64,000 nucleotides of DNA from Aromatoleum aromaticum EbN1. GTDB taxonomy: Bacteria; Pseudomonadota; Gammaproteobacteria; Burkholderiales; Rhodocyclaceae. Below the pieces are notes generated by a model, which was given only the letters and a program-made list of their open reading frames with translations, ran no database searches and had not been told where the DNA came from. The stretch lies in contig NC_006513.1 of assembly GCF_000025965.1 (NCBI RefSeq), positions 3,534,001-3,598,000 on the forward strand, written 5' to 3'. Of the stretch, positions 8,662-55,600 are shown in pieces; position 1 is the first letter of the stretch, and the number at the start of each line of letters is the position of its first letter. A program made the translations under genes and the position numbers.

Positions 8662-9168
8662 CAGGGTTCTCCTGAAATTCGAAATTAGTCTCGTCTGGCT
8701 AACCCGCGCGTGCCCCTGAAGCTTCGTGTGCGAGCCGTCGCAAAACGTCGCCGATCACCGATTTTGCCGCCCTGTTGGGATATGCTCGCGCCGGTCGGAA
8801 AATTCGAGGAACATAAACGGAGTACGCGGAATGAGCACCTATCAGGAAATCCTCGCGCAGATCGAAGCGCTCAAGCAGCAGGCCGAAGAAATGCGGCAGG
8901 CCGAGATTGCCGGCGTGATCGCCGACATCCGGCAGAAGATCAGCGACTACAACCTGAGCGCGGCCGATCTGGGCTTCGGCGCGCCGGCGCGGGGCGAGAA
9001 ACCGGCTGCGGGCAAGCGCGGAACGGTGAAGGCGAAATATCGCAACCCGGCGGCCGGCGCGAGCTGGTCCGGCCGCGGCGTGATGCCGAAGTGGCTGAAG
9101 GCCGAGCTGGAAGCGGGGAAGGCGAAGGAGGCGTTCCTGATTGCGGATGAAGAAGCGCAAGTGCGATG
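8662..9168. repeat. Long direct repeat, copy B
   Basis: The second copy of the segment at 4405-4910, same orientation. It starts exactly at the antitoxin ribosome-site sequence (CAGGGTTCTCCTG) but the antitoxin gene itself is missing here, so this copy has an orphaned promoter region to its left. Differences between copies are scattered substitutions and a few small indels in the non-coding part. Confidence 0.85.
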
Positions 9169-39047: not shown

Positions 39048-39278
39048 ATGGGATAGCTTGATCGGATCAGCCAGGAGCCCGGGGTGATGGGCGGCAAAGC
39101 GTGCATCCGGGGCATGCGTGTCACGGTCGGCATGGTCGTGGGACAGATCGGTGCAGGGCATAGCATCGACGAGATCCTTGCCGACTACCCCTATCTTGAA
39201 CGTGAGGACATCATGCAGGCGCTTCGCTACGCTGCATGGCGGGCCGAAGAGCGCGAGGTGGTGCTGGTCTCCGCATGA
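39048..39278 (+). pseudogene. DUF433 antitoxin with a stop at codon 3
   Basis: An ATG at 39048 with an excellent ribosome site (GAGAGGAG) begins M-G-stop, then LDRISQEPGVMGGKACIRGM and on through MVVGQIGAGHSIDEILADYP. LDRI...GGKACIRG is the normal N-terminus of DUF433 antitoxins, so the TAG at 39054-39056 interrupts the native frame, probably from TGG. Reinitiation at ATG 39084 would make a 64-residue protein lacking the first strand. It is coupled to the DUF5615 gene by ATGA. Confidence 0.65.
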
Positions 39279-39622
39279 AGCTGCTCGTCGATATGAATCT
39301 GTCGCCGCGCTGGATCGGGGTGCTGGGCGATGCAGGATTCGAAGCGGTGCACTGGACTTCGCTGGGGGCGAAGAACGCCCCAGACTCGGAAATCATGGCC
39401 TACGCCAAAGCCGCCGATTACGTGGTGCTCACCCACGATCTGGATTTCGGCGCGATCCTCGCCGCTACGCACGGCGAGAAGCCGAGTGTCGTGCAAATCC
39501 GCGCGGAGGATGTCAGCCCGGACGCAATAGGCGAGCAGATTATCGTCGCCCTGCGACAGATGACCTCCGAGCTGCGGAGACGCCGTGGCTTTTCCGCCCT
39601 ACGCTCGCTGCGCCGGCACTGA
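39275..39622 (+). CDS. DUF5615 PIN-like toxin
   Basis: A 115-residue PIN-like protein. MKLLVDMNLSPRWIGVL with an Asp at residue 6, KNAPDSEIMAYAKAADYVVL with a middle acid and THDLDFGAILA with the last acid match DUF5615, which pairs with DUF433 in TA loci. It overlaps the antitoxin frame by four bases. Since the antitoxin has a nonsense codon, either the toxin is weakly expressed through lost coupling, or the module relies on reinitiation. Confidence 0.8.
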   Translation: MKLLVDMNLSPRWIGVLGDAGFEAVHWTSLGAKNAPDSEIMAYAKAADYVVLTHDLDFGAILAATHGEKPSVVQIRAEDVSPDAIGEQIIVALRQMTSELRRRRGFSALRSLRRH

Positions 39623-39771
39623 GGGGCTTGCGTTCATAAATAGGACGCCCTAAAAATTTGTAAGGAACTGTATTGTTGGGTGAAGTGAGCTTGATGTAAA
39701 GTGCATATATTCACGCTGACGGGTTGCGCCCCGTCATTTAGGCGGTCCACTTATAGTTAGCCCTTTTCATC
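39623..39771. other. Left junction of the cassette cluster
   Basis: AT-rich DNA with no gene. GTTGGGT (39675-39681) and GTTAGCC (39756-39762) match the 3' core of integron recombination sites, and a hairpin TGACGGG...CCCGTCA (39717-39736) precedes the second. A matching left-hand core is not visible, so this may be a degraded attC, an attI-like site, or half a site. The first cassette gene starts at 39772. Confidence 0.4.
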
Positions 39772-40236
39772 ATGTCCGAATATCAGCTCACCGAACGACT
39801 CATTGCTCTAAGCGTTGGCGACACATGGGATGAGGCGAAACTCGAATGGGGCCTTGAGGATGTCTGGCGTGACGACGAACCCGACACCTGCCTTTGCGGG
39901 CATTTTCCCATAATCGAAATCTGTCTCCTCAGAAATGCAAGGAACCGCAACACCGGAATTGTCGGAAACTGCTGCGTCAAGAAATTCACCAACCTTCCTT
40001 CCGACCTCATCTTCCAGGCCGTTAAGCGAATCGAAAGCGACGTTGAGCGCGCCATCAACGTCGAGACAATTCATCATGCCCATGAAAAAGGGTGGATCAA
40101 CGATTGGGAGAGAAAGTTCTACATAGACACTTGGCGAAAACGAAAACTGTCGGGTGCCCAGCATACGAGGCGCGTGCAGATCAATCAGAAGGTGTTGGCC
40201 AACATCGTGAGGGCGCGTAATCGTGCAAAGGGCTAA
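39772..40236 (+). CDS. Cassette protein 1, Cys-containing, unknown function
   Basis: A 154-residue protein of a family I do not recognise by name. The central DTCLCGHFPIIEICLLRN, then GIVGNCCVKKF, contains a Cys-x-Cys-Gly-His and a Cys-Cys pair that could bind zinc in a knuckle-like fold. The C-terminal half is basic and helical (GWINDWERKFYIDTWRKRK; VLANIVRARNRAKG). The gene is lower in GC than the core genes. It ends inside the left arm of the attC-like site at 40231, as integron cassette genes often do. Confidence 0.65.
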   Translation: MSEYQLTERLIALSVGDTWDEAKLEWGLEDVWRDDEPDTCLCGHFPIIEICLLRNARNRNTGIVGNCCVKKFTNLPSDLIFQAVKRIESDVERAINVETIHHAHEKGWINDWERKFYIDTWRKRKLSGAQHTRRVQINQKVLANIVRARNRAKG

Positions 40237-40296
40237 CACAACGTTCGAGGGGACCTGCGCGAAAAGCCGCGCAGGCCCCTCAACTTCACGTTAGCG
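40231..40296 (+). repeat. attC-like site A
   Basis: A 66-base element starting GGCTAAC and ending GTTAGCG, complementary cores. Between them GGGG-A-CCTGCGCG pairs with CGCGCAGG-CCCC, leaving one unpaired A, the extra-helical base typical of attC. The loop is about five bases. It follows cassette gene 1. Confidence 0.75.
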
Positions 40297-40312
40297 CGAA
40301 AGGAGACAGGCG

Positions 40313-40786
40313 TTGTTTGCATCTATATCGTGCTGGTGGGGGAGCTTGGATTCCACAGCCATAGGAAACCTCATTGCCACATTCGCTGCGGTGGTGGCTA
40401 TTGGCAGCCTGGCCTATCAGTCGCGATCCACCCGGAAGCAAATAAAGCTACAAAACTTCATTGAATATACGAAGCGGTATCAAGAGATTATTCTTCACTT
40501 CCCAGAGAGGATAAACAGAAGCGATTTTGTCCTCACCGAGCTATCCGCGGAAGAGTACGAACGGACCATGCGATATATGCGCGCGTACATGGATCTATGC
40601 TTTGAAGAGCACCTGCTACACGAAAAAGGGTTCATCGATGATGACCTTTGGTCTATATGGGAAGGCGGCATGAAGACCGCCTTTTCCAAGAAGGCGTTCC
40701 AAGACGCATGGGCTGCCATCAAGCAGGACACGGAATATGGCGAGAAATTCACGGCTTTTGCTGACAAATTTGGGCTCAATCGCTAA
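40313..40786 (+). CDS. Cassette protein 2, membrane-anchored, unknown function
   Basis: A 157-residue protein starting at TTG 40313, six bases after AGGAGA. Residues 16-35 form one membrane segment (AIGNLIATFAAVVAIGSLAY), followed by a cytoplasmic helical part: SRSTRKQIKLQNFIEYTKRY, then YMRAYMDLCFEEHLLHEKGF and IDDDLWSIWEGGMKTAF. This layout recurs in small proteins of defence and integron contexts, but no family name is certain. GC content is well below the core. The stop overlaps the next attC-like site. Confidence 0.65.
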   Translation: MFASISCWWGSLDSTAIGNLIATFAAVVAIGSLAYQSRSTRKQIKLQNFIEYTKRYQEIILHFPERINRSDFVLTELSAEEYERTMRYMRAYMDLCFEEHLLHEKGFIDDDLWSIWEGGMKTAFSKKAFQDAWAAIKQDTEYGEKFTAFADKFGLNR

Positions 40787-40852
40787 CAAGCGCTTGGAGC
40801 CGACCGTCACACTGCTGCGCAGTTTGCCGTCGGCTGAAGCTTCACGTTGGGT
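40781..40852 (+). repeat. attC-like site B
   Basis: A 72-base element starting CGCTAAC and ending GTTGGGT. AGCCGAC and GTCGGCT form the main stem and ACTGC/GCAGT an inner stem. Spacing and cores fit attC; it closes cassette 2. Confidence 0.7.
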
Positions 40853-40865
40853 ATCTTGATTGGCC

Positions 40866-41723
40866 ATGAAGAAGTACCTTCTGTACATCGACATCCTCGG
40901 TTTCAAAGACCTTGTTTCCCAGAAACCTCGCAAGATCGAGATGCTTTACGGCATCATCGACTCACTCAACGTTCACGCTCATCACGCATTCAGAACGATT
41001 GTGTTCTCAGACACGATCCTTGTTTACAACTCGGCAGACCCTGTAACCGAAGCCGATCGCGACTATTTCGTGATGTATGCATGTGAGTTTGCGCAAGATC
41101 TTCAGCACCGACTGGTTGGCCAAGATATCTACTTCAGGGCAGTGTTGGTACTGGGCGACTTCGATCATTACCTTCTGAAGAACATCGAGTGCTTCTACGG
41201 CGCGGCTCTAATCAAGGCTTACGTCAAAGAGAAGGACATTCCCGCCATCGGTCTGTTTATTGATGATGCATCAAACAGTCACAACAATATTTTCCCAACG
41301 GTACGATTCGATCCTGATCTCAGCTTTGTATTTCTCAATCAATCTCTCGAACGATTACAGAGGGACACCGAGGGAGACCTTCCAATAGACTCTTTTTATC
41401 TCGCCGAGACAGGTGAGTATTGTGAGATTCTTTGGGATATCCGGTTTCTGAACGATATTTTTAGCAATACGCAGCGGCAAAATAGTTCGCGCATAAGAAC
41501 CAAGTACCTCACTACTTGGCATCTTTTTCGGCGGCGCTATCCGAAAATTCTAGACGCGCTAGAATCCCGTGCCTTTTCGCCAAAGGCAATCTGTGAGCAC
41601 TTTGACTGGACGCAAAGCATCGAGAATTTCAAAGAGTCCTTGGTGCACTTTCGCAGCATCGGAGCCGATGCCCAACCCATCATTCCATCGGGCCTTGCGC
41701 ATAAAGCCGCGCAAGGCCGGTGA
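40866..41723 (+). CDS. Cassette protein 3, class III cyclase-like, unknown function
   Basis: A 285-residue protein starting MKKYLLYIDILGFKDLV. The N-terminal 120 residues follow the layout of a class III nucleotide cyclase: Asp9 in YIDILGF, Asp49 in TIVFSDTILVY about 40 residues later (the spacing of the two metal Asp residues), then YFRAVLVLGDF and FYGAALIKAYVKEKD, which resemble the strand and helix after the catalytic loop. The C-terminal 150 residues match nothing I know. The cyclase reading is by pattern, not search. No convincing ribosome site precedes the ATG at 40866. Confidence 0.5.
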   Translation: MKKYLLYIDILGFKDLVSQKPRKIEMLYGIIDSLNVHAHHAFRTIVFSDTILVYNSADPVTEADRDYFVMYACEFAQDLQHRLVGQDIYFRAVLVLGDFDHYLLKNIECFYGAALIKAYVKEKDIPAIGLFIDDASNSHNNIFPTVRFDPDLSFVFLNQSLERLQRDTEGDLPIDSFYLAETGEYCEILWDIRFLNDIFSNTQRQNSSRIRTKYLTTWHLFRRRYPKILDALESRAFSPKAICEHFDWTQSIENFKESLVHFRSIGADAQPIIPSGLAHKAAQGR

Positions 41724-41738
41724 ATTCAAACGTTGGGC
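41670..41738 (+). repeat. attC-like site C
   Basis: A 69-base element starting GCCCAAC and ending GTTGGGC, exact complementary cores. GGCCTTGCGC pairs exactly with GCGCAAGGCC. The last codons of cassette gene 3 lie inside it. This is the clearest attC of the set. Confidence 0.8.
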
Positions 41739-41770
41739 GGCTCAAAATTCAACTCCCCTGCAAGTTACAT

Positions 41771-42145
41771 ATGGCCAAAATAGTTTTCAATTCGTTTGAG
41801 TCCTTTCTTTCGAGGCATCCTGAGTCATTCAGTTTCACTGCCACCATCACCTCTGCTGAACCAAAGGGGCTGAGCACCGACAAGAGTGACAAGAAATTGC
41901 CAACGCCATATAAACTTTTCCATGAGTGGGCGTCACTCTCGCTTGCAGGTGAGTGGGTTACAACAAAGTACAAAGGTGGGTTCATCATTTGCGTTTCAGA
42001 CCTGAAAGACGCAACCCTTATTTCTCAAAAATTTGGAACAACGGGCACACCGAGAAAAGCTTTTACAACGGAACGCAATGTAGCACTTGGATACAAAGAC
42101 GATGACTACAGTCAGCTAGCAAGGGAGCTTGGGTATGATATTTGA
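41771..42145 (+). CDS. Cassette protein 4, unknown function
   Basis: A 124-residue protein, MAKIVFNSFESFLSRHPESF to SQLARELGYDI. It has no membrane segment or recognisable motif; the middle (PYKLFHEWASLSLAGEWVTT; GGFIICVSDLKDATLISQKF) looks like a compact alpha/beta fold with an aromatic core. The ATG at 41771 is preferred over an upstream in-frame start at 41720 that lies inside attC site C. The gene is the least GC-rich of the cassettes. A half attC follows 9 bases later. Confidence 0.6.
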   Translation: MAKIVFNSFESFLSRHPESFSFTATITSAEPKGLSTDKSDKKLPTPYKLFHEWASLSLAGEWVTTKYKGGFIICVSDLKDATLISQKFGTTGTPRKAFTTERNVALGYKDDDYSQLARELGYDI

Positions 42146-42366
42146 GTCATTTTGTCCAACCTATCATTCCACCGGATCTGCGCGACATCGAGGCACTGAT
42201 TATCGGTCTTGGTGGTGAAGTCCATGAACGAAAAGGCTCTCGCGTCAAGATCCTTCTCAATGGTGAGCAGTGGCGTTGCCATCGCCCTCACCCTGGCAAA
42301 GAGGCCAAGCGTTACCAAGTCGAAGAGGCCCGAGAATTGCTGGAACGAGTAGGAGTAAAACCATGA
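42142..42366 (+). CDS. HicA-type toxin, N-terminus replaced by attC-derived codons
   Basis: From about residue 13 the protein (RDIEALIIGLGGEVHERKGS, then WRCHRPHPGKEAKRYQVEEA) is a HicA mRNA interferase with the dsRBD-like fold. The first 20 or so residues of normal HicA (before the RDIEAL helix) are missing. The open frame instead begins at TTG 42142 and runs through the half attC site (SHFVQPIIPP). Whether it is translated or active is uncertain. It overlaps hicB by ATGA. Confidence 0.6.
   Translation: MSHFVQPIIPPDLRDIEALIIGLGGEVHERKGSRVKILLNGEQWRCHRPHPGKEAKRYQVEEARELLERVGVKP
42154..42184 (+). repeat. Left half of an attC-like site (D)
   Basis: GTCCAACCTATCATTCCACC and the following bases match the first 30 positions of attC site C with a few changes, but the right half is absent. 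Instead the sequence passes directly into a hicA reading frame near 42173-42184. Confidence 0.6.
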
Positions 42367-42698
42367 ACACCATGACCCACAAAGGCTATACAGCCCGCAT
42401 CGAGTTCGACGAACGCGACAACATTTTTGTCGGTCGCGTACTTGGCCTGCGCGTCATGATCAGCTTCCATGGTGAAACTGTGGCTGAACTGCATGAGGCA
42501 TTCGCTGGCGCCATCGAGGACTTTCTTTCCGATTGCAAGGAACAAGGGGTCAAGCCAGAAAAGCCTGCCTCCGGCAAGCTCATGCTGCGCGTTCCGCCAG
42601 AAGTCCATGGTGCGGCACTCGTCGCTGCTCAAGCTTCGGGCAAGAGCCTGAATCAGTGGGCAACGGAGGTTATTCAGCGCGCATCCCGTGCGTATTGA
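42363..42698 (+). CDS. hicB: HicB antitoxin
   Basis: A 111-residue HicB: a partial RNase H-fold N-terminus (YTARIEFDERDNIFVGRVLG, then VAELHEAFAGAIEDFLSDCK) and a ribbon-helix-helix DNA-binding C-terminus (SGKLMLRVPPEVHGAALVAA, SLNQWATEVIQRA). It inhibits HicA and represses the operon. Complete. It starts within the hicA end. A GTCTAAC at 42711-42717 downstream may be the left core of yet another attC site. Confidence 0.88.
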   Translation: MNTMTHKGYTARIEFDERDNIFVGRVLGLRVMISFHGETVAELHEAFAGAIEDFLSDCKEQGVKPEKPASGKLMLRVPPEVHGAALVAAQASGKSLNQWATEVIQRASRAY

Positions 42699-42798
42699 AA
42701 TGCCGCCGCCGTCTAACCGTGCGTTGCGCGCGGGCGCTAACCCGTACCGGGTGGTTGCCCTCTGCCTTCGGCTCCGGCGCCGGTGAAGCCTGCGCGCC
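42699..42798. other. Right junction of the cassette cluster
   Basis: One hundred bases between hicB and the serB stop on the other strand. GTCTAAC (42711-42717) fits the left core of an attC, and GCGCTAAC occurs just after, but no GTTRRRY partner with a proper stem follows. The core genome resumes at serB. Confidence 0.3.
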
Positions 42799-43629
42799 CT
42801 ACGTGAAGAGGTTCAGCAGCCCGTCCAGCCCGACGTGGTCGAGGCGGCAGTCGGCTACGGTGCGCAGCACGGGCTTCGCCCGGTAGGCGACGGCGAAGCC
42901 GGCTTCGGTCAGCATCGGGATGTCGTTGGCGCCGTCGCCGGCGGCGATCACCTGGTCGGACTTCAGGCCCAGGCGCTCGCGCGCGTGACGCAGATGGGCG
43001 GCTTTCGCGGCGCCGTCGACGATCGCGCCCCGCACCCGGCCGGTGAGGCGCCCGTGGTGCGTTTCGAGTTCATTCGCGTGAGCTTCGTCGAAGCCGAGCC
43101 GCGCCTTGAGGCGCTCGGTGAAATACGTGAAACCGCCTGACACCAGCACGGTGTGGAGACCCGCCCCCTTCAGTCCGCGCATCAGGCGTTCGGCGCCCGG
43201 GTTCACCTGCAGCCGCTGCTCGTAGACCTCGGCGAGCGCCGCTTCGGGCAGGCCGGCGAGGAGGCTCACGCGGCGCGTCAGGGATTCACGGAAGTCGATT
43301 TCCCCGCGCATCGCCGCTTCGGTGATCGCTGCGACTTGGGGCTTCAGGCCCTGCATGTCGGCGATTTCGTCGATGCACTCGATGTTGATCAGCGTCGAGT
43401 CCATGTCGGTGACGAACAGGCCGAAGTCGGCGAGCTTGCGTCCGGCGGGCACCCACGCCCAGTCGAGCCCGGCTTCGGCGCACAGAGTGTCGACGCCTTC
43501 GCGGTCGTGCCCGGCCACGAGCCGGAAAGCCTGCGCAGTGATCTGCTCGATGGCGCTCGCGCCGGTGAGTTTGGCGAGATTCTTCAGGGCGACCGAATCG
43601 ACATCCTCGCCCTGCACGACAAGATTCAT
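42799..43629 (-). CDS. serB: Phosphoserine phosphatase
   Basis: SerB performs the last step of serine synthesis. A 276-residue HAD phosphatase with an N-terminal ACT-like region. Motif I is FVTDMDSTLI (nucleophile Asp), then EAAMRGEIDFRESLTRRV, motif II VLVSGGFTYF and motif IV AAGDGANDIPML. The ATG at 43629 is used because it overlaps aroG by ATGA; the frame is open upstream only inside aroG. Normal in length. Confidence 0.94.
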   Translation of the reverse strand: MNLVVQGEDVDSVALKNLAKLTGASAIEQITAQAFRLVAGHDREGVDTLCAEAGLDWAWVPAGRKLADFGLFVTDMDSTLINIECIDEIADMQGLKPQVAAITEAAMRGEIDFRESLTRRVSLLAGLPEAALAEVYEQRLQVNPGAERLMRGLKGAGLHTVLVSGGFTYFTERLKARLGFDEAHANELETHHGRLTGRVRGAIVDGAAKAAHLRHARERLGLKSDQVIAAGDGANDIPMLTEAGFAVAYRAKPVLRTVADCRLDHVGLDGLLNLFT

Positions 43630-52681: not shown

Positions 52682-55600
52682 ATGACTGCGATCGCCGACA
52701 TACCGGCAGAACAAACCGCCTCCGCCAGTACCGTGGGGCCTGTGGCCCTCTCGTCGAGGATCGTTGTGCTTGCTGCGATGTATATCGCGGTTGGCCTGTT
52801 CGCGCGCGCACTGACACAGTCGTCCGGCTATTCGTCACCCGTGTGGCCCGCGGCCGGTTTCGCTCTGGCGGCCTTGCTGGTGTGGGGCGCGCGTTGTTGG
52901 CCCGGCGTCTGGCTCGGCGCCTTCGTGATCGTTCTTCTACCGGATCGCACGACTAGCGGCGCGCTGGTTGCCGCGCTCGGTGCCAGCGGCATGACGCTTC
53001 AGGCGCTGCTCGGCGTCTGCCTCGCGAGACGCTGCCTGCGTTCGTCATCGTTTCCGGCACGCAACCGGGATATCGCACGCCTCGTCCTGCTGACCGGGCC
53101 GCTGGCCTCGCTGGTGGCGTCCAGCATTGCCGTCGCCGCGCTGCTCGCCTTCGAACGCATTGCCCCGGCGGCCGGGCCGAGCGAGTGGCTGACATGGTGG
53201 GCGGGGGATACGCTGGGCGTGTTGCTGTTCGCACCGCTGGTGCTGCTGGCGTGGCCGGGGCCGCTGCGCGGTTGGATACGCCGGAGCGGGGGCGGGAGGA
53301 TTTCGATCCTGCTGGTTCTCGCGGCCGCACTCTTCTCCGCCGGCAGCTTCACGGTCGATCGGCTGTGGAAGGAACGCGAACGCACCGAGATCGCCCAGCG
53401 GATGGACGAGGTGTTCGAAATCGGTTTTCTTCTGCTGCCTGAGGTCATCGCCTCGCTCGAAGGCGTCGAACGCTTCGTGAGCGCCAGTTCGGCTGTGACG
53501 AGGGACGAATTCGAGACTTTCACGGTCTGGATCACGCGGCATCCGGCGGTGGTGTCGATCGATTGGGCGCCCCGCGTACTAGCGGAAGAGCGCGAGAGTT
53601 TCGAACGGGCGGTCCGCGCCGAGGGGGGGCGTGATTTCCGTATTTTCGAGCCCGGCGACGACGGCAACACGCGGCCCGCCACAGGGCGACCGGAATACTT
53701 CCCCGTTCTGTACAGCGCGCCGAGGGAAGCGGGGCGGAGCATCCTGGGACTCGACCACGGCTACGATCCGCATCGACGTGTCGCGATGGAGCAGGCGCGG
53801 CAAAGCCGCGAGGCTCACACGGTCCGCGGAGTGCCGCTGCTGCGGACGAAGCGCCTGTCGCTGCTCGTTTTTCAGCCGGTGCACGATGTGGCGCGCGCTT
53901 CATGGGACGCTGCGGCGCGGGCCGGGCCCCGCGATCTGCTGGGCCATGTCGTGGGTGTCTTCGACGTCGAAAAGCTGTTCATCCCGCTCGCCGAGGCCGC
54001 GCATACGCGCAGCATCGGTTTTCGTGTATCGGATGTGACGTCCGGCGAACCTGCGCAGATCTTGCTCGATGAAATGCCGGCGGGGGTCGCCCCGACTTTG
54101 CGCAAGGAAATCGGGTTTGGCGGACGGACGTGGAGTCTGGAATTGGCGGCTAAAGCGCCGACCGGATACGTCGATACTCACGGCGAGGAGGAGATCTATC
54201 TTGCATTTTCGGTTCTGGCGGCCGTCCTCGTGGCTTATATCGCGCTGAGCAACGCGGGACACACGGCGGCGATCCAGAGGGAGGTGGCGGAGCAGACCGC
54301 CGAGCTCACGCGGGCCCTCGACGCTCGTCTGGCCGCGGAAGACGAGCGCGACCGCATTTTCGAACAGTCTGTCGATCTGCTCGGTATCGTGGGTATCGAT
54401 GGTTACTTCAAGCGTGTGAATCCGGCTTTCGCCCGGACGCTCGGGTGGAGCAATGAGGAATTCCTGTCGCGGCCCTATCTCGATTTCGTCCATCCGGACG
54501 ATGTGGAGGGGACGCGCGCCGATGCCGCAAGGGTCGCCGCAGGGCATACGACAGTCGGTTTCGAGAATCGCTATCGCTGCAAGGACGGAAACTGGCGCTG
54601 GCTGGAATGGAAGGCAGTGCCCCGAACAGGCGGGTTGATGTTCGTGACCGCGATCGACACGACGCAGCGACGCGAGAACGCTCGGCACCTGCGCACGCTC
54701 AACGCTGAACTTGTGCATCGCGTCGACGAACGCGAAGCGGCACTGGAAGCCCTCGGTGCCAAGAAGGACGAGATTCGAGCGGTGCTCGACAATCTGATCG
54801 AATGTGTCGTGACCATCAATGCGCAAGGGATCGTCCAAGGGGCGAATGCAGCGGTCGAAGCGGTGTTCGGATACCCGCTCGGCGAGGTCATCGGACGCAA
54901 TGTCTCGCTGCTGATGCCTTCTCCGGAGCGGGAGCGGCATGACGATTACCTGGCGCGCTACCTCGATACCGGTGCAAGACACGTCATCGGAAGCACTCGC
55001 GAGGTGGAGGGGCAGCACAAGCTCGGACACCGGATCCCGATGGAGCTGAGTGTCGCCGAGTACCGCGTGCGCGACGAGCAGTTCTTCGTCGGCACGTTGC
55101 GGGACATCAGCGAGCGCAAGGCATTTATCGCGGCACTGACGCGGGCGCGGGAAGACGCGGAGCAGGCAAGTCGGGCGAAATCCGCTTTCCTGGCGGCGAT
55201 GAGCCACGAGATCCGCACCCCGATGAACGGCGTGATGGGGCTGATCGAAGTGTTGGCGCGCACCTCGCTGTCGGAGCATCAGGCCGATCTCGTCGCAACG
55301 ATCTGCGGATCGTCATCCACGCTGTTGCGCATCATCGACGACATCCTCGACTTCTCGAAGATCGAGGCCGGTCGACTGAAACTCGACGTCCGGCCAGTAT
55401 CGATCGGAGATCTCGTCGAAAGCCTGGCCGGTTCGCTTCTTCCGCTGGCGGCCCGGCTCGACGTCGATCTGTCGGTATTCGTCTCGCCGGAGGTCCCCGA
55501 GCGCGTGGAGGCCGACGAGGTGCGGCTACGGCAGGTTCTATACAACCTCGTGGGCAACGCGGTGAAATTCTCCGCCGGTCGTCAGAATGTGCGGGGCCGA

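Follow-up and report, generated by a model that had tools for sequence, protein, structure and literature searches.

An integron without its own integrase gene in the chromosome of Aromatoleum aromaticum EbN1

Gene cassettes and attC sites between a carboxypeptidase gene and serB

We analyzed a window of 64,000 nt (G000:C1:3534001-3598000) of the Aromatoleum aromaticum EbN1 genome (G000; 4,727,255 bases in three contigs); other G numbers denote comparison genomes and L numbers single loci compared. Between an M14 carboxypeptidase gene and serB, this window carries an array of gene cassettes on the plus strand with a GC content of 0.493, compared with 0.698 to its left and 0.685 to its right. 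Cassette A (39757-40290) contains a gene (39772-40236) encoding a 154 amino acid protein of no named family, and cassette B (40291-40846) an ORF (40313-40786) encoding 157 amino acids from a TTG start. Cassette C (40847-41732) contains a gene (40866-41723) for a 285 amino acid protein, and the 3'-truncated cassette D (41733-42184) a gene (41771-42145) for one of 124 amino acids. A preliminary description of this DNA had reported four cassette genes of lower GC content than their flanks, which agrees with cassettes A to D; the hicAB genes must be added as a fifth, 5'-truncated cassette (E, 42183-42717), with hicA (42142-42366; Pfam HicA_toxin), whose N-terminus has been replaced, and hicB (42363-42698; Pfam HicB). 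Cassette E ends at the R'' sequence GTCTAAC (42711-42717), and no complete attC follows it. As in mobile cassettes, a TTRRRY-type start is matched by a RYYYAA-type end, with the two ends of one cassette agreeing over 7 of 7 bases in A and B and with one difference in C and D.

The attC sites were scored with a covariance model (R1) that served as a substitute for IntegronFinder's own attC model. R1 was trained on 22 attC sites located beside intact integrases in 11 genomes from other genera of the family, with the window excluded; the sites were hand-picked among the matches listed in a hairpin scan, leaving out long sites and same-genus sites, and were aligned on their bottom strands, where 13 of the 19 consensus pairs show at least one double change. 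On the bottom strand of the window, R1 matched exactly the three complete plus-strand sites of the preliminary description: site A (40231-40296; 71.3 bits, E = 1.5e-16), site C (41670-41738; 75.7 bits, E = 1.1e-17), and site B (40781-40852; 20.0 bits, E = 0.005 in the window). Searched over the whole genome, R1 gave B an E value of 0.38. Sites A and C are therefore attC sites beyond reasonable doubt, while B is marginal by score and, because of its genome-wide E value, rests on its position and on the cassette ends more than on the score. With a cut-off of E = 10, R1 returned three other matches across the 64 kb: site A on its top strand (E = 0.079) and the segments 53465-53493 (E = 1.8) and 42711-42729 (E = 2.4). 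At gathering scores, Rfam found nothing in the window. The half site at 42154-42184 (plus strand) corresponds to the left half of a fourth attC, that of cassette D, whose right half was removed by a deletion, as indicated by the comparison with G156 and G100 and by the cassette-end match.

Folding of the bottom strands as DNA gave z-scores of -6.6 for site A, -4.0 for C and -2.3 for B (5 of 200 shuffles of B were equally good). For A and C, the top strand gave comparable values (z = -7.3 and -4.0), so that the strand cannot be chosen from fold energy alone. An unpaired base on one arm, pointed out earlier as an attC feature, is present in the R1 consensus (column 58), whereas the claim of complementary 7-base cores holds fully only for site C (7 of 7 bases; 6 of 7 in A and 4 of 7 in B); imperfect complementarity in A and B is expected, since R' belongs to the next cassette. 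Hairpin scans proved unsuitable as attC detectors, yielding many false sites such as 42711-42817, whose bottom-strand fold (z = -0.5) is no better than shuffles. R1 was also run on 14 genomes of the order that belong to other families, and matched at E ≤ 0.01 in eight and in none of the other six; the four genomes with an over-cut-off IntI were all among the eight, and 4 of the 10 without one also had a match.

Invariant cysteines mark the unnamed family of the cassette A protein (alignment of 33 sequences), and homologues occur at 43 loci in several phyla and in 80 plasmid records. An attC match lies at most 100 bases from the homologue at nine of these 43 loci (by eye; eight of them at E ≤ 0.04), and matching cassette ends were also found at nine of 43 with a looser pattern (shuffled mean 1.87; none of 5000 shuffles reached nine). 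This pattern was loosened after the strict result had been seen (1 of 43 loci; control mean 0.07), which is low because GTTAGCC, the core that cassette A itself has in the window, falls outside the strict consensus. Given these matching ends and nearby attC sites, other genomes also carry cassette A as a cassette. At a Sideroxydans locus (L138:5850-6480), the first gene after an attI-like junction is a 75% identical copy of that of cassette A, and its cassette has the start GTTAGCC and the end GGCTAAC found in the window.

Cassettes B and D have one distant plasmid relative each; cassette C has none on plasmids and matches only itself among 379 genomes of the order. NCBIfam returned no match for the proteins of cassettes A to D, and PADLOC returned weak matches for B (E = 0.015 and 0.019) and none for A, C and D, while the PHROGs matches were weak and to uncharacterised families (A, E = 0.009; C, E = 8e-6). 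The predicted structure of the cassette A protein (pLDDT 92.7) had no PDB match at E ≤ 0.001, and the search for solved relatives by sequence gave one chance-level match for A (E = 0.94) and none for C. A structure of the cassette C protein predicted from its single sequence (pLDDT 41.5) was not used.

The attI region and the remnant of the integrase gene

To the left of cassette A, the minus strand from 39637 to 39611 encodes MNASPSVPA, the first nine codons of an intI gene, and then leaves the integrase at a junction to unrelated DNA. The same junction is present in G156, where the nine codons read MNAGPSVPT, and both sequences continue with QRA and a stop. In G100 the stub continues differently from both, at a different intI junction. 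Together, these readings indicate that intI was deleted here and was lost differently in relatives. The integron has lost its integrase in cis. None of the 41 integrase-model matches of the genome falls in the window, in line with the earlier statement that it contains no tyrosine recombinase.

The stub borders a putative attI region (39638-39756, plus strand), assigned by homology to attI beside intI and by its position, with a predicted crossover between G39756 and T39757, where the similarity to G156 ends after GTT. The segment 39612-39768 matches 11 of 346 family genomes, including its own, at E ≤ 0.01; long matches to the attI region are found in G156 (at the same locus), in G100 and G155 (at other loci) and in G310, which belongs to another genus. 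In G155 and G310 (L108 and L118), the attI element and a decayed intI start at the same point and run in opposite directions. A profile built from five copies of attI was searched over 21 loci with intI, and matched in the divergent position beside an intact intI in L091 (E = 1.4e-4) and L095 (E = 9e-4), with the match ends 114 and 128 bases away from the start of intI; in the window, 119 bases separate the start codon (39637) from the crossover (39756). The portion that matches beside these intact genes is the 3' part of attI. Weaker matches were obtained in L099 (E = 0.07), L088 (E = 1.8) and L098 (E = 0.15, at 282 bases), along with three weak ones elsewhere. In 16 of the 21 loci there was no match at the expected place, so that only a minority of the intI loci show a recognisable attI of this type.

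For the promoter Pc that would drive the cassettes, a consensus scan detected no plus-strand promoter-like site in attI; over 39500-42800 it returned a single promoter-like site, on the minus strand, where shuffled sequences gave 2.1 on average. At the intI scar (39585-39611) there is a short repeat ending ...GGCTTTTCCGCCCTACGCTCGCTG, which also lies, by eye, near the junctions at L073:4120-4260, L072:4970-5100 and L075:4420-4560, and may have been the cause of the intI deletion. The DNA left of the array (39050-39622) contains DUF433 and DUF5615 genes; the DUF433 frame, compared by eye with an open copy in G155 (L075), has a stop at the third codon, and a later start leaves 64 amino acids.

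Deletion joints, probable origin of the array and possible cassette exchange

Comparison with G156, whose flanks are 93-94% identical to those of the window, revealed the borders of the array. The similarity runs through attI and breaks exactly after GTT, beyond which cassette A stands opposite another cassette; a single attC-sized match follows, and the similarity resumes at 42183, inside hicA. In G156, hicAB is preceded by an attC of 46 bits at GTTAGAC, and hicA has a one-base gap of its own; in G100, HicA has 24 extra N-terminal residues. The window lacks both the start of hicAB that is present in relatives and the right half of attC D, which identifies the half site as a deletion joint. 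The preliminary description had named, as evidence against an array, conserved order of the four genes in related genomes that lack these sites; when 32 loci from relatives and from this genome were searched with the cassette A to D proteins, none matched at E ≤ 1e-3. The carboxypeptidase gene and serB adjoin in 6 of 11 congener loci (L077-L082), four close relatives (L072-L075) have other DNA between them, and L076 has no serB match.

An IntI integrase joins attI to a folded bottom-strand attC, thereby adding cassettes behind attI. The attC sites, attI, the intI stub, the cassette borders between G and TT and the two deletion joints are all legible in the DNA; we infer that IntI was the recombining agent and that events took the following order. 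A platform of intI, attI and cassettes would once have sat between the carboxypeptidase gene and serB, and its integrase would have inserted cassettes behind attI by recombining it with folded bottom-strand attC hairpins. The intI gene would then have been deleted from about codon 10 onward, leaving attI and the array, and a later deletion in this lineage would have joined attC D to an internal position of hicA. This stretch is a real integron that has kept its landing site and captured cassettes and whose own integrase gene is reduced to its first nine codons. The preliminary description had proposed a cluster of attC sites lacking integrase (CALIN), which fits the close attC sites (A, C and, at its window E value, B), the cassettes, and the integrase match nearest to the array, a remnant about 28 kb away, but is incomplete, having missed attI and the intI stub (39611-39756). 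Since these two lie at its left end, the array is a degraded integron and not a free-standing set of attC sites.

A degraded chromosomal integron is, on these sequence comparisons, very probably the best explanation. That the array consists of ordinary genes with chance inverted repeats is next to inconceivable: the core-motif pattern alone is useless as an attC detector, giving 19 forward versus 74 reversed-control matches in the genome, but E values of the order of 1e-17 and 1.5e-16 were reached with an independent model, and the window and G156 differ by exact cassette exchange at the borders. Cassettes could also have been inserted singly at a secondary site that never had an integrase in cis, as the trans insertion of cassettes at non-attI sites has been described (PMC12444791); the left end, with its intI stub and its homology to attI, and the position of attI beside decayed intI in L108 and L118 make such an ectopic CALIN highly improbable. 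It is likewise very unlikely that an inversion brought the array here as a fragment of the neighbouring integron, whose intI remnant lies at C1:3604632. That integron does lie about 28 kb away in the opposite orientation, but the attI of the window has a single match in the genome and none in L014, the attI of the neighbour resembles the G044/G137 type (by eye), and the window array has an intI stub of its own.

The degraded integron of G000 and that of G156 share the intI junction (nine codons, QRA, stop) but have no common cassette between attI and hicAB, and in each the first cassette is joined to attI exactly after GTT. Such a complete cassette difference between two species sharing an intI scar suggests exchange in trans. 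If the deletion came first, a trans-acting IntI would have exchanged the cassettes afterwards, for example the full-length IntI of the prophage-like region described below. Continued use of the orphan attI once its integrase gene had gone is a tentative proposal, and rather doubtful on the present sequences. Chief among the alternatives, homologous recombination may have exchanged the left flank with its scar between lineages, or IntI may have acted before a scar gained by that route. With the full-length IntI encoded at another locus, the cassettes may still be movable in trans; CALINs have been described as mobilisable in trans by a functional IntI (PMC12444791).

CALINs, degraded integrons and intI loss are already known (PMC9024848; PMC12444791), and one survey counted similar numbers of CALINs (2961) and complete integrons (2760; PMC9024848). 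The window resembles the CALINs of that survey in its at least two attC sites, its cassettes in one direction and the lack of a nearby integrase, but still has a recognisable attI and nine intI codons; the software that detects CALINs ignores attI outside class 1 (PMC9024848). Xanthomonas integrons with an inactivated or deleted intI have likewise kept their cassettes, and CALINs also lie away from the main integron locus there (PMC12444791); unlike them, the window belongs to another family, and its first cassettes differ between species with a common deletion junction. An integron integrase of Azoarcus sp. EbN1 appears as a taxon in the trees of PMC3108266, and our searches of an open-access library returned no prior description of this array or its attI. 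The array is a well-resolved example of a known element type; its one potentially new point, cassette turnover behind an attI already without integrase, is at present rather doubtful. The origin of attC clusters without integrase is mostly inferred, whereas here the cause is readable because the landing site and nine integrase codons remain and the junction is common to one relative. Homology to attI can separate degraded integrons from other attC clusters, and the array provides a natural test of cassette movement after integrase loss.

Other integron sequences in the genome and the genus

The preliminary description had called such a cluster unusual for an Azoarcus-like chromosome, which our survey contradicts: IntI was found at E ≤ 1e-60 in 93 of 150 family genomes, and attC matches at E ≤ 0.01 in all 17 genus genomes (own genome included in both). 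Elsewhere in the genome, where it had suggested looking for intI or more attC sites, there are a full-length IntI, the intI remnant about 28 kb away and nine further attC matches. The full-length IntI (C1:10796-11803; 335 amino acids; integron integrase model 461.6 bits) shares 61% identity with the intact G044 IntI, and attC matches lie beside it at 9082, 9635 and 10005 (L013); cassettes pointing in the same direction as intI were ruled out there by the strand of the R1 matches. A phage-type integrase, adjacent to tRNA-Arg, is 143 bases away, and a CI-like repressor is found at a distance of 10 kb (L013:9082-13295, G000:C1:9082-13295). L013 holds an integron in a prophage-like element and is a possible trans source of IntI; integrons in phages have been described (PMC9892861).

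To the right of the window, L014:2430-6995 (G000:C1:3600430-3604995) contains a second degraded integron, in which the intI remnant at C1:3604632 is accompanied by attC matches at 3600430 and 3603782, on the other strand from the window array. By eye, its attI is like that of G044 and G137, and an ORF between the two attC matches was named an IS-like transposase. An intI-like fragment at 3194122 (44.7 bits), located 150 bases from an attC match at 3193894 (L015, G000:C1:3193894-3194241), is possibly a further integron remnant. The remaining attC matches are at 268844, 269416, 280820 and 1706251. Three of the matches fall within 12 kb (G000:C1:268844-280883, L016 in part), close to one of three identical recombinase sets, located at C1:281-284 kb and, twice, on C3. 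These sets are probably the RIT elements reported for EbN1, which has three identical copies, with RITs on plasmid 2 (PMC3414803).

No over-cut-off IntI was found in the four closest relatives tested (G100, G154, G155 and G156), while G044 and G137 have one. Within 1.5 kb of the 3' end of mfd, which was identified by DNA alignment and whose reading frame NCBIfam names mfd, 3 of 17 genomes carry intI sequence: fragments in G100 (L182) and G156 (L183), and a decayed intI with a window-type attI in G155 (L179). No intI sequence was found within that distance in G000 and G154. The 3' side of mfd looks like an older integron site in the genus. In G310, which belongs to another genus, an mfd-like sequence was seen by eye beside the decayed intI.
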